Positions 52,159-55,732 of a stretch of 64,000 nucleotides of DNA are shown here, piece by piece (position 1 is the stretch's first letter; the number at the start of each line of letters is the position of its first letter). The notes under the pieces are model-generated. The model searched no databases, was not told the origin of the DNA, and was given only the letters and a program-made list of their open reading frames with translations. Position numbers and translations under genes: made by a program. The stretch comes from an uncultured Pelagibacteraceae bacterium (GTDB taxonomy: Bacteria > Pseudomonadota > Alphaproteobacteria > Pelagibacterales > Pelagibacteraceae), in the NCBI GenBank assembly GCA_902622795.1, contig CACNRD010000001.1, forward strand, positions 124,001-188,000, in the 5' to 3' direction.

Positions 52159-52178
52159 GATTATTTTTGAGCTTTCTT

Positions 52179-52445
52179 ATGGTTTATTACGTATATTTAA
52201 TAAAAACATTGGATGGTTACAAAAACAAATCATATGTTGGATATACTAATAATTTAATCTCTAGAATAAATAAGCATAATTCAAATATTGGCGCAAAATC
52301 TACAAAAGGTTATAAATGGGAATTGGTTTATAAAAAAAGATTTTACTTAAAGCAAAAAGCTCTTTCTTTTGAATATAAACTTAAAAAAAATAGAAAAGAA
52401 AGATTAAATTTAATTTATGATTTTAAAAAAAAATCGAATACTTAA
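52179..52445 (+). CDS. GIY-YIG domain protein (UPF0213 type)
   Basis: An 88-residue single-domain GIY-YIG protein: YYVYLIKT (GIY strand), SYVGYTNNLISRINKH (YIG strand with catalytic Arg), and Glu in LSFEYKLKK. Small members of this group are predicted nucleases; several are linked to repair or mobile DNA, but most have unknown roles. I choose the ATG at 52179 over a TTG at 52167. It begins 20 bases after tRNA-Glu and overlaps the glycosyltransferase by 29 bases, opening the accessory block. Confidence 0.85.
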   Translation: MVYYVYLIKTLDGYKNKSYVGYTNNLISRINKHNSNIGAKSTKGYKWELVYKKRFYLKQKALSFEYKLKKNRKERLNLIYDFKKKSNT

Positions 52446-54537
52446 AATTGCAACAATATTACCTTATAAGGAAAACTATACCCATGATAAAGCCTCAGCT
52501 GCATCATTATGGGTTTCTGAATTTTATGCAAAATCAAAATATAAAAAATATAATTTTATTTATGGTCATACAAAATCAAAAAATTACTTAACTAAAAATT
52601 ATATTAATATAAATTTAAAAAATTTAAAATCTAAATTAAAAAGTACAACAACTGAATATGCTGAAAAATTAATTAAGGATTTGAATTCAAAAAATTATAA
52701 TATTATTGAAATTCATAATAGACCAAAGCTTCTTATTAAATTATTACAAAAGGTTAAATCAAGATTTATTTTTTATTTCCATAATGACCCATTATCTATG
52801 AAGGGATCTAAATTTATTAACGAAAGATTAGAAATACTTAACTCTGTTGATAGATTAATTTTTGTAAGCGAATGGGTGAGAAATAGGTTTTTTTTAGATA
52901 TTGATAAAAAATTACAAACTAAAACTGATGTAATTTATCCAAGTGTACACAAACAAAAACTGAGTAAAAAAAAAAATAATATAATTTTTGTTGGAAGATT
53001 AAATCATTCTAAGGGTTACGATTTATTTAAAGAAGCTATAATTAAAATTCTTGATGAATTTCCAAAATGGCATGCATATTCAGTTGGTGATGAAGAAAGA
53101 AGATCAATTTATATATCACATGCAAGACACAAAGAATTAGGATTTATCAATCATAAAGATACACTTAAATTACTTAACAAATCTGAAATAGCAGTTGTAC
53201 CTTCAAGATGGGATGAACCATTTGGAAGGACAGCTTTAGAGTCATCATCTAGAGGATGTGCTACAATAATCAGTAATCGAGGTGGTTTAACAGAAACTAC
53301 TGACTATGCTTCAATACTTAAAAAACTTGATGCTAAAAATATTTATCAGGAAATAAAAATGTTTATTAAACATCCACTAAAAAAGCAAAAAATTCAAAAA
53401 CTTGGTAGAAAAAATATAAAACACTTAATAAATAACAATACAAAGCTGATTGATGAAATCAGAGAAAGTATTTTTCCACGATTCAATTTAAATTATATAA
53501 AAAATAAATTAAAGATTATAAATTTATACAATCAAGGACAAAAACATAATCATAGATTATTTAACATTTCACTTGGAAAAAAATTTACTAATGGTTTTGT
53601 TCGAAATGGACATGATGTACTTGAAATAAGTGATAGGGATTATTTAAGGAATAATAAATCTTTTAACTTAATACCTAATAAAATTAATTTTCAAAACTTT
53701 TTGATTGATACCTTTAAAAACTACAATCCAGATGTATTTTTTTTTGGTCATACAAAAAACATAACTTTAGATACACTAGAAGCAATCAGGTCAATAAATA
53801 AAAACCTAATTATTTCACAATGGAATGAGGATCCAGTAATGGATGGTTTAAATTATTCAAAACAAAATATATCAAATATTAAATTATATGCTGATTATGT
53901 AGATCATAATTTTATAACAACGCATCCTTCAATAATTAAAAATAAAATTAATAGTAATTTTCATTTTTTCTTTGTTCCTGTAGATAAAAATATTGAAAGA
54001 TTTGATGTTTATAAACTTAGACCAAAAAATGATTTATTTTATGCTATGAGTCACGGTGTTAATCGTTCTATATTAAAGCAAGGCACTGAAGATGATAGAA
54101 TTAAATTTTTAGATATGCTGATTAAAAAGATTCCAGATATTAAATATGATTTTTATGGTTTCTTAAATAAACAACCAATTTGGGGTAACGATTTTAATAA
54201 TGCATTAATAAACTCAAAAATGGCTCTCAATTTAAGTAGAGGCAGACCTACTAAATATTACTCAAGTAATAGAATAGCGTCTATTATGGGTAATGGATTA
54301 CTTACTTTTATAGATAAAAATGTAGGTATGTCTGATTTTTTCAATAAAGATGAGATTATTTTTTATTCAAGCATAAATGACCTCTCAGATAAAATTAAAT
54401 TTTACTCTAGGAATGATAAACTCAGAACAAAAATTGCAAAAAAAGGTAAAACTAAATATTTCAAACTTTTCAATGAAAGTAAAATTGCCAAATACATGAT
54501 TGACATATCTATGGGAAAACAAGCCTCATTATTTTAG
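52417..54537 (+). CDS. Fused double glycosyltransferase (GT4-like plus second GT domain)
   Basis: A 706-residue protein with two glycosyltransferase-like halves. Residues about 1-340 are a GT-B enzyme of family 4 type: IIFVGRLNHSKGYDLF opens the nucleotide-sugar domain, and EPFGRTALESSSRG is the EX7E motif. Residues about 350-706 look like a second GT-B unit of the CgeB/DUF3880-like group, with FFFGHTKNITLDTLEAIRSI and a late NRIASIMGNGLLTFID loop. No membrane segment or signal is seen, so it probably works at the cytoplasmic face on surface polysaccharide. Substrates cannot be read. Confidence 0.82.
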   Translation: MILKKNRILKIATILPYKENYTHDKASAASLWVSEFYAKSKYKKYNFIYGHTKSKNYLTKNYININLKNLKSKLKSTTTEYAEKLIKDLNSKNYNIIEIHNRPKLLIKLLQKVKSRFIFYFHNDPLSMKGSKFINERLEILNSVDRLIFVSEWVRNRFFLDIDKKLQTKTDVIYPSVHKQKLSKKKNNIIFVGRLNHSKGYDLFKEAIIKILDEFPKWHAYSVGDEERRSIYISHARHKELGFINHKDTLKLLNKSEIAVVPSRWDEPFGRTALESSSRGCATIISNRGGLTETTDYASILKKLDAKNIYQEIKMFIKHPLKKQKIQKLGRKNIKHLINNNTKLIDEIRESIFPRFNLNYIKNKLKIINLYNQGQKHNHRLFNISLGKKFTNGFVRNGHDVLEISDRDYLRNNKSFNLIPNKINFQNFLIDTFKNYNPDVFFFGHTKNITLDTLEAIRSINKNLIISQWNEDPVMDGLNYSKQNISNIKLYADYVDHNFITTHPSIIKNKINSNFHFFFVPVDKNIERFDVYKLRPKNDLFYAMSHGVNRSILKQGTEDDRIKFLDMLIKKIPDIKYDFYGFLNKQPIWGNDFNNALINSKMALNLSRGRPTKYYSSNRIASIMGNGLLTFIDKNVGMSDFFNKDEIIFYSSINDLSDKIKFYSRNDKLRTKIAKKGKTKYFKLFNESKIAKYMIDISMGKQASLF

Positions 54538-54628: not shown

Positions 54629-54660
54629 AATAAAATTAAAATTTAAATTTTAATTTTATT
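54629..54660. repeat. Perfect 32-base A/T palindrome
   Basis: The sequence from AATAAAATTAAAATTT (54629-54644) onward equals its own reverse complement over 32 bases, with no spacer. It contains the stop codon of the recombinase gene and lies in the gap after the glycosyltransferase. It may act as a weak bidirectional terminator for the two converging genes, though no GC-rich stem is present. Confidence 0.75.
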
Positions 54661-55599
54661 TAAAGCATTATTCTTAAACAAATTTGCTTCCTTAATATAT
54701 CTTCTAACCATTTCTGTAGACTTATGTCCTGTCATAGCCATTATGCTTCTTTCTTCTGCTCCTGACTCAGCAGCAGATGTAGCAAAGCCAGATCTTAAAC
54801 TATGTCCAGAGTAATTTTTGCTTTCGATGCCTACTAATTTTAAATAATCTTTTATAAGTAAAGCAACTGATTGGTCAGTTAATCTATTATTTGATAGCTT
54901 TGATCCTTTAGTAAACCTTCTAAAAATTGCTCCTGAGCTAATTTTAGATATTTCAATCCATTTTTTAATTGAAACTACTGGGCAATATTGTGAATTGTCA
55001 AAGTAGGGTAGTCCTTTTATAGAACCCTCACCAAATTGATCTGTTTTTGATCTTTTAAGTCTAATTTTAAGACCCTCTTGCATGAATTCGAGATCATCAT
55101 AGTCTAGTGAAACTATCTCATTTCTTCTAAATCCACCTGAAAACCCAATTAATAAAATTGATCTGTCTCTCAGTTTTTTTATTTCCTCATTTTTTTCCTT
55201 ATCAATTACATCTATAAGTTTTTTTAAATAATTGATTAATAATGGTTTTTTAGCTTTTTGAATGCTACCTTTTCTTCTTTTAATCCCCATTATATTTTCA
55301 ATAATTGATGGGTGCTTTGTATCCAAATAGTGACCTTTAAGTTTATGTATAACGCCTATTGATACCAATCTTCTTTTTAATGTGCTCATTTTAGCGTCTT
55401 TCGATGATAAATGGGTCAAATATAATGAAACAATGTTTGGTTCTGATGGAAGAGATTTAAATCCATTTTGTGCACAGAATAATCCAAAATCATTAAAGTC
55501 TGATTTATAAGCTCTTACTGTATTGTGTGACTTTGAATTTTGAAGATTTAGTAAAGTCTCTTGCTGCAATTTTTTTATGTCAGTTATTATTTCACTCAT
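54643..55599 (-). CDS. Tyrosine recombinase / site-specific integrase
   Basis: A 318-residue tyrosine recombinase with all catalytic residues: Arg158 (GGFRRNEI), Lys185 (RSKTDQ), His266 and Arg269 (GHSLRSGF), His292 (MTGHKST) and Tyr301 (RRYIKEA). An N-terminal SAM-like core-binding domain (SHNTVRAYKSDFNDFGLFC) precedes it. It stands alone with no phage structural genes, excisionase or relaxase. Its start codon lies inside a 47-base dyad resembling a recombinase core site and its stop codon inside a perfect palindrome. It could be an integrase relic, a mobile-element recombinase or a single-subunit Xer-like enzyme. Confidence 0.9.
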   Translation of the reverse strand: MSEIITDIKKLQQETLLNLQNSKSHNTVRAYKSDFNDFGLFCAQNGFKSLPSEPNIVSLYLTHLSSKDAKMSTLKRRLVSIGVIHKLKGHYLDTKHPSIIENIMGIKRRKGSIQKAKKPLLINYLKKLIDVIDKEKNEEIKKLRDRSILLIGFSGGFRRNEIVSLDYDDLEFMQEGLKIRLKRSKTDQFGEGSIKGLPYFDNSQYCPVVSIKKWIEISKISSGAIFRRFTKGSKLSNNRLTDQSVALLIKDYLKLVGIESKNYSGHSLRSGFATSAAESGAEERSIMAMTGHKSTEMVRRYIKEANLFKNNALNKIKI

Positions 55600-55642
55600 A
55601 TATTACTATTGATAACCATTAATTATCGTTAGTAATATATGA
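55596..55642. other. Putative recombinase crossover site or operator (dif-like dyad)
   Basis: Two 20-base arms (55596-55615 and 55623-55642) are complementary at 18 positions plus one T-G; the centre is seven bases, CCATTAA. The inner arms, GATAA and TTATC, resemble the ATAA/TTAT inner arms of dif sites, which have a six-base centre. The left arm includes the recombinase start codon. Both a DNA-crossover site and an autoregulatory operator fit. Confidence 0.55.
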
Positions 55643-55732
55643 AGTATTTTATAATGTCAAATAAATATTTTATTAATTAAAACTACAATTAATAATATTG
55701 CGAGGCCAATAAGGATCAAATATGATTTTAAT

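Follow-up and report, generated by a model that had tools for sequence, protein, structure and literature searches.

A dif-like site and its adjoining tyrosine recombinase as a probable single-recombinase dif/Xer system of Pelagibacteraceae (SAR11)

In the present study, a palindrome at the 5' end of a tyrosine recombinase gene was analysed in a stretch of 64,000 nucleotides from an uncultured Pelagibacteraceae bacterium (the window). On the basis of sequence comparison, we consider this dyad to be the probable dif site of the Pelagibacteraceae (SAR11), and the adjoining gene to encode the sole recombinase acting there, with a probability of about 0.85. A single-recombinase dif/Xer system is much the best explanation of the findings, with autoregulation as a possible second role. 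SAR11 are among the most abundant bacteria of the ocean. In the mechanism that we propose, two recombinase subunits would sit on the GATAA-containing arms of one site, and two such sites, one per sister chromosome of a dimer, would form a synapse at the terminus. FtsK, with its conserved translocase and gamma domains, would draw the two sites to each other at the septum; strand exchange within or close to the 7-base centre would then yield two monomers. Binding, cleavage points, FtsK dependence and recombination at the site are thereby predicted. The module appears to descend from a plasmid-type recombinase-plus-site module by which XerC/XerD were replaced.

The dyad and its recombinase

The palindrome reported by the sequence-only reading at 55596-55642 is real. 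Its arms (55596-55615 and 55623-55642, no strand assigned) are complementary at 18 of 20 positions around a 7-nt spacer. When the window was scanned for dyads with 20-base arms, 18 or more pairs and a spacer of 3-12, it was the single match, and 60 windows simulated by a first-order Markov model yielded none. The 20-7-20 geometry holds for the window dyad as it was described, but the conserved unit is shorter. Symmetry was counted over 91 different site sequences, for which the GATAA/TTATC core was a requirement of the scan. Outside the core, symmetry holds at positions -3 to -9 in 74-91 of the 91 sites and at position -10 in 58, while at positions -11 to -14 it holds in only 27-42. Positions -1 and -2 are symmetric in just 44 and 16 of the 91 sites, and in type-A sites (defined below) both are mostly asymmetric, which was counted against the dif-site reading. 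Because the symmetry fades some ten bases out from GATAA, the working unit is roughly 15-7-15 (about 37 bases) and not 20-7-20, and the outermost five pairs on each side are peculiar to the window genome.

The conserved dif-like site, with 15-base type-A arms and the 7-base centre, lies at 55601-55637 on the minus strand and reads TATTACTAACGATAA-TTAATGG-TTATCAATAGTAATA in gene orientation. Its core GATAA-TTAATGG-TTATC (55611-55627, minus strand) occurs exactly once in the genome assembly; since the exact core is single-copy, a regulator of many genes is unlikely to bind there. The asymmetric centre TTAATGG (55616-55622, minus strand) is the presumed region of strand exchange. Among 80 named loci, the centre is TTAATTG in 41, TTAATGG in 34 and another sequence in 5.

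The gene (54643-55599, minus strand) encodes a single tyrosine recombinase of 318 aa, in which a SAM-like N-terminal domain precedes the catalytic domain. In an alignment of 17 orthologue rows (64-100% identity), R158, K185, H266-x-x-R269, H292 and Y301 are invariant, and from knowledge of the family we take R158, K185, H266, R269, H292 and Y301 to be the catalytic residues. The protein fell outside the curated models of XerD and XerC (80.6 and 75.9 bits, cut-offs 329.6 and 335.15) and of XerS (52.1 bits, cut-off 267). In a PDB search XerH was not the nearest structure (E 9e-6), being outscored by XerD, archaeal XerC-like and Cre chains. An AlphaFold model of the recombinase was set aside at a mean pLDDT of 50.8.

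The palindrome is intergenic with a short centre, apart from its outermost bases, which in the window genome lie over the recombinase ATG. The start-codon overlap that had been claimed is thus correct for this genome but not general, as GATAA-N7-TTATC ends 9-68 nt before the matched protein start in 80 of 80 named-contig loci. These are the best 80 of 575 places from a profile search, and all are titled Pelagibacterales, Pelagibacteraceae or Pelagibacter, including 'Candidatus Pelagibacter ubique' HTCC9565.

A candidate -35 element, TTGACA, of putative promoter function, lies at 55655-55660 on the minus strand. By eye, TTGAC(A/T) stands just before the outer left arm in 27 genus loci and a -10-like TATATT overlaps that arm, but a promoter scan at the dyad region gave 12 matches against 11.4 in shuffles, i.e. 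no better. The site overlaps a probable promoter, and binding there might also regulate the recombinase gene. The autoregulatory operator of the sequence-only reading keeps these promoter-like elements and gains nothing from the scan. It could also be the whole function of the dyad, with the recombinase or another repressor controlling its own promoter and recombination taking place elsewhere or not at all; the dyad does stand just upstream of the gene in every locus found by protein search. However, an operator alone leaves unexplained the conserved asymmetric centre, as well as the terminus position (7 of 7 genomes) and the missing XerCD described below. Nor does it account for sites of this kind in phages that have no tyrosine recombinase, or for plasmid sites that stand as much as about 1 kb away from their gene, and we hold it to be unlikely.

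Linkage to the gene, chromosome position and partner proteins

Linkage of site and gene argues for a dif site and its recombinase. A search of 61 related genomes at the protein level gave one close orthologue in each of 27 of 37 same-genus genomes, and a GATAA-TTAAWKG-TTATC core stands upstream of the recombinase in 27 of these 27 loci. Genomes with and without the gene were compared, as had been proposed: the exact core, as a 19-base pattern, has one copy in each of the 27 gene-bearing genus genomes (27/27) and none in the other 34 of the 61 genomes (0/34). The earlier thought that the dyad might be absent from orthologues was not borne out: each of the 110 loci located by protein search (27 + 80 + 3) has the site upstream of the recombinase, and so do all 20 additional stretches taken from upstream of protein matches, which cover six genera. 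The genome and contig sets overlap, and some genomes are counted in more than one set. The pooled set holds 132 loci, and the site is present in each of the 130 that have the recombinase; 20 of the 130 form no independent test because they were found by the site pattern itself. L290 and L306, from that same search and lacking the recombinase, were dropped. The core differs by one base in G064 and G184. Each genome that has the gene holds one orthologue and one adjoining site, and the site is retained beside recombinases down to 56% identity. A further PF00589 protein accompanies the recombinase in 3 of 10 single-contig and 2 of 27 genus genomes. Second copies of GATAA-N7-TTATC, in L178, L188, L208 and L226, are all without arms and look like chance.

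Across the order, 137 of 198 genomes match the recombinase, and among the matches listed all are Pelagibacteraceae, from six genera; 41 of the 61 genomes without a match have no family assignment here. Counting against the dif-site reading, 10 of the 37 genus assemblies lack the gene, as do at least 16 drafts of the family that are 90% complete or more. Since the share of the 37 genus genomes with the gene (73%) nearly equals their mean completeness (77%), and no XerCD-like protein was found in the 16 drafts, these cases are probably assembly gaps, an explanation that is likely but not proven.

One flank of the site is conserved: the same ORF recurs there in 69 of 78 loci, at 500 bases (median). 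The opposite flank is variable, with 43 ORF clusters in 77 loci; the variable block at the site may itself break assemblies. Flanks of this kind would suit an island integrase that uses the dyad as its attachment core and inserts the downstream variable gene block, as the sequence-only reading had considered, and homologues on viral contigs adjoin the same kind of site. This proposal was weakened, and an island attachment site rejected as the main reading, because no second exact copy was found in any of 27 genomes as the other end of an island. Moreover, the site is single-copy in six family genera and stands at the terminus where tested, so that we regard an attachment core as very improbable.

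The dif-site reading had led to an expected position opposite the replication origin, and all 11 single-contig genomes, from four genera, do have the site 0.418-0.487 of the circle away from dnaA. In G012 (complete, single contig, 1,343,202 bp), the site, at 617,609, lies between the detrended GC-skew maximum (616,051) and the T-A skew minimum (620,848). The distance from the site to the GC-skew maximum was 1.3, 10.8, 10.8, 1.1, 1.05, 1.8 and 1.6 kb, which places it near the terminus in 7 of 7 genomes; besides G012, these are six contigs of 103-329 kb picked as long and gene-bearing, the window's own included. In these six contigs the word GAGTAGG, chosen as polarised in G012, is oriented 32 times toward the site and once away, and AGTAGGG 32 times toward and 4 away. 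Words of the same composition, the control for GAGTAGG, point toward the site in 64% of cases. When the majority orientation is counted, GAGTAGG ranks 1st of 6383 heptamers with at least 20 occurrences. We propose it as a candidate for the FtsK-orienting word of SAR11, and as a candidate only because orthologous genes make the six contigs dependent. The orienting word of E. coli is GGGNAGGG, and GGGTAGGG is a form of it; GAGTAGG is one base off the start of GGGTAGGG. As an orienting word of SAR11, GGGNAGGG itself was rejected as too rare (8 toward versus 3 away).

Two further features were observed in this region. The variable block downstream of the recombinase (L154-L233; window 52417-54537) stands at a border formed by the terminus site, and its ORFs, judged from their translations, presumably encode glycosyltransferases and other surface-polysaccharide proteins. 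In addition, a small ORF follows tRNA-Glu at window 52167-52445, which by its motif resembles a GIY-YIG endonuclease.

A clear XerCD/dif pair in the genome had been allowed for, but no XerCD-like protein was found in the family genomes searched. There was no PF00589 match at an XerCD-like score (at least 133 bits) in 37 genus genomes, and no XerCD-like match in the family genomes available as single contigs (10) or searched as drafts (16). The recombinase is carried by 10 of the 10 single-contig family genomes; among the 16 drafts lacking the gene, 13 have no member of the fold and 3 have a lower-scoring one of 430-464 residues. In the sister family, an XerC/XerD-like PF00589 match (133-163 bits) is present in 24 of 24 genomes, and 19 of 24 have at least two PF00589 matches, G054 having just one at XerCD-like score. 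FtsK is present in 7 of 8 family genomes searched, the one in which it was not found being G035, and in 3 of 3 of the sister family. FtsK of the window's genome (G000) has the 4TM, alpha, translocase and gamma domains, the gamma domain PF09397 scoring 94.7 bits against a cut-off of 30.6. Overall, a single-copy, gene-linked and terminal site, with no XerCD-like protein found and FtsK kept, agrees with the one-protein Xer-like module that was first suggested. In the sister family itself, matches to the classical dif pattern were no commoner than in the control overall. The sequence AATATATATTATG recurs in 6 of 10 sister-family genomes (G037, G039, G040, G045, G047 and G048), which is suggestive of a candidate classical dif in this XerCD-bearing family.

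Arm types, plasmid relatives and phage sites

The sites have two types of outer arm, type A (ATTACTAAY...) and type B (TTCC...GGAA). Residues 227-238 of the recombinase, a 12-residue insertion, are present in 118 of 118 type-A and 0 of 12 type-B recombinases. They are a candidate site-specificity element, encoded at 54886-54921 on the minus strand as computed from the ORF start at 55599. The 12 type-B proteins stand together in a tree of 61 rows (support 89/99). When plasmid proteins were included, in a tree of 28 rows, type A formed a single clade (100/98) and the four rows of type B did not, so that type B would fit as the older state. Both types were found inside genera g1, g5 and g8; a mix of this kind would be expected of a gene and a site that move together. 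The co-variation of arm and protein is also suggestive and not a statistical test, because it is possibly one evolutionary change.

The closest relatives found for the protein are plasmid recombinases. Matches were found on 1487 plasmids, the best of them covering 94% of the protein with 43.6% identity, and the XerCD-like matches of the sister family lie below them at 25-32% identity. From 40 plasmids among the matches listed, 15 were chosen for host variety and scanned for dyads whose arms are 11 bases long and form 9 or more pairs, whose centre is 6-7 bases, and in which one or both arms end in ATAA. An upstream dyad within about 1 kb of the gene was found in 12 of the 15, and both arms end in GATAA in 9 of these 12; of the 15 examined, the Paenibacillus, Acetobacter and Aureimonas plasmids had no such dyad. 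For the first 12 plasmids, the dyad was found in 10, against a mean of 0.32 and a maximum of 2 in shuffles. The 28-row tree, whose three XerCD rows are all from the sister family and which leaves out XerH, XerS, XerA and XerL, groups the SAR11 proteins with plasmid and viral proteins, apart from XerCD (100/100). We infer that SAR11 may have taken over a plasmid multimer-resolution module, with the transfer running from plasmid to SAR11. The plasmid affinity of the protein would equally suit a selfish or idle module that entered near the terminus in an ancestor and was inherited without a segregation role, but a site kept beside proteins down to 56% identity, catalytic residues invariant in 17 rows, a position opposite dnaA kept in four genera and the failure to find XerCD make this very improbable.

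Similar sites were also found in phages. The dyad region matches the isolated pelagiphages HTVC100P (92%, E 7e-4) and HTVC035P (87%, E 8e-3) over 36-37 bases, in both within an unannotated stretch near terL; five other weak phage matches (Listeria and Staphylococcus phages, E 0.1-0.3) are all outside the core. In the terL surroundings of 13 pelagiphages, type-A sites (23-27 of 28 matches) were present in HTVC100P, HTVC035P, Greip and HTVC106P. A type-B site (15-17 of 18) stands beside the type-A site in two of these four, and HTVC010P has a weak type-B match. Reversed sequences and ten shuffles gave 0; 8 of the 13 pelagiphages had no match at that threshold, several of them showing partial arms by eye. 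The tyrosine-recombinase fold is absent from 12 of 13 pelagiphage records, and the exception, HTVC028P, has no site in the 224 bases before its first gene. Dif-like sites upstream of the terminase in pelagiphages lacking a tyrosine recombinase were observed at MW273924.1 34318-34352, MW273923.1 35827-35863 and L506 2940.

In IMG/VR, the exact core occurs in 29 contigs and the type-B palindrome in at least 120; these contigs were selected by the site itself. Of 141 loci, 114 are AT-rich, and a pelagiphage-like terL is present in 76 AT-rich loci and one other contig; the site is 326-685 bases upstream of terL in 71 of these 77. Types A and B lie within 60 bases of each other in 24 loci. The phage centres are mostly unlike the host TTAATKG. 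A recombinase homologue (28-43% identity) near TTCCGATAA-N7-TTATCGGAA was found in 13 viral contigs, which had been selected by this pattern. In GC-rich viral contigs (L408, L411, L422, L431, L450 and L458), distant recombinase homologues have TTCCGATAA-N7-TTATCGGAA nearby with highly varied centres. A phage origin of the gene was rejected, as the SAR11 profile gave no IMG/VR relative, in a scan resting on few peptide words, and plasmids are closer; no pelagiphage was among 10 phage matches to the recombinase. A prophage at the site was also rejected, since a related terL occurs in 7 of 397 family genomes and none of the seven terL-centred stretches (2.4-4.1 kb) has the site.

Overall, we lean slightly towards a scenario in which SAR11 swapped XerC/XerD for a domesticated plasmid module, and HTVC010P-type viruses, which mostly have no tyrosine recombinase, exploit the host enzyme via dif mimics upstream of terL. 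These mimics would allow them to integrate at the terminus or resolve their own multimers, and tandem sites of both types would serve both host lineages. The phage part stays a reading because the contigs were selected by the site, the centres differ and no lysogen was seen at the host dyad.

Comparison with known systems

In 2009, dif/Xer was reported as absent from Pelagibacter ubique. If the single-recombinase dif/Xer reading is true, that absence would be overturned, another independent single-recombinase answer to chromosome dimers would be added, and a plasmid-type module would be seen to have been adopted by a chromosome. It would also give a testable reason for a host-like recombination site in pelagiphages that have no tyrosine recombinase. 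In HTCC1062, a gene called xerD (SAR11_1019) is up with recA under sulfur limitation (excerpts of PMC5069961), and the gene called xerD is up with recA in light (excerpts of PMC3090418); it may be the recombinase of this site. No described SAR11 system of this kind was found in the open-licence PMC literature, including excerpts of PMC9765430, PMC3025954, PMC7858055, PMC5357621, PMC2217521, PMC10504331 and PMC3861242.

The system resembles XerC/XerD-dif in its ATAA/TTAT inner arms, short centre, terminus position and FtsK gamma domain. It differs in having one protein instead of two, with scores far below the XerC/XerD cut-offs. With XerL/dif of Legionellales, as the excerpted text of PMC9765430 describes it, it shares long arms, a mobile element with a dif mimic, and a single recombinase that had escaped homology searches in a group reportedly devoid of dif/Xer. 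By that description XerL is set apart, its gene and site being more than 400 kb apart in L. pneumophila, whereas they are adjacent in SAR11. The nearest relatives found are plasmid recombinases titled 'site-specific integrase' (e.g. of Alicyclobacillus pAACI01), which have a similar upstream dyad; those systems are on a plasmid rather than at a chromosome terminus, and their outer arms are unlike those of SAR11. XerH/difH and XerS/difSL, in excerpts of PMC2731167 and PMC5357621, likewise have one tyrosine recombinase, a site near the gene and the skew terminus, an AT-rich palindrome and FtsK. However, the SAR11 protein is only distantly related to XerH and XerS, the SAR11 arms are about 15 bases with GATAA/TTATC, and the centre is 7 bases as compared with 11 in difSL and 6-10 in difH (same excerpts). 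Thus, the SAR11 system would function like XerH/difH and XerS/difSL, yet it is best named a new, plasmid-like variant.
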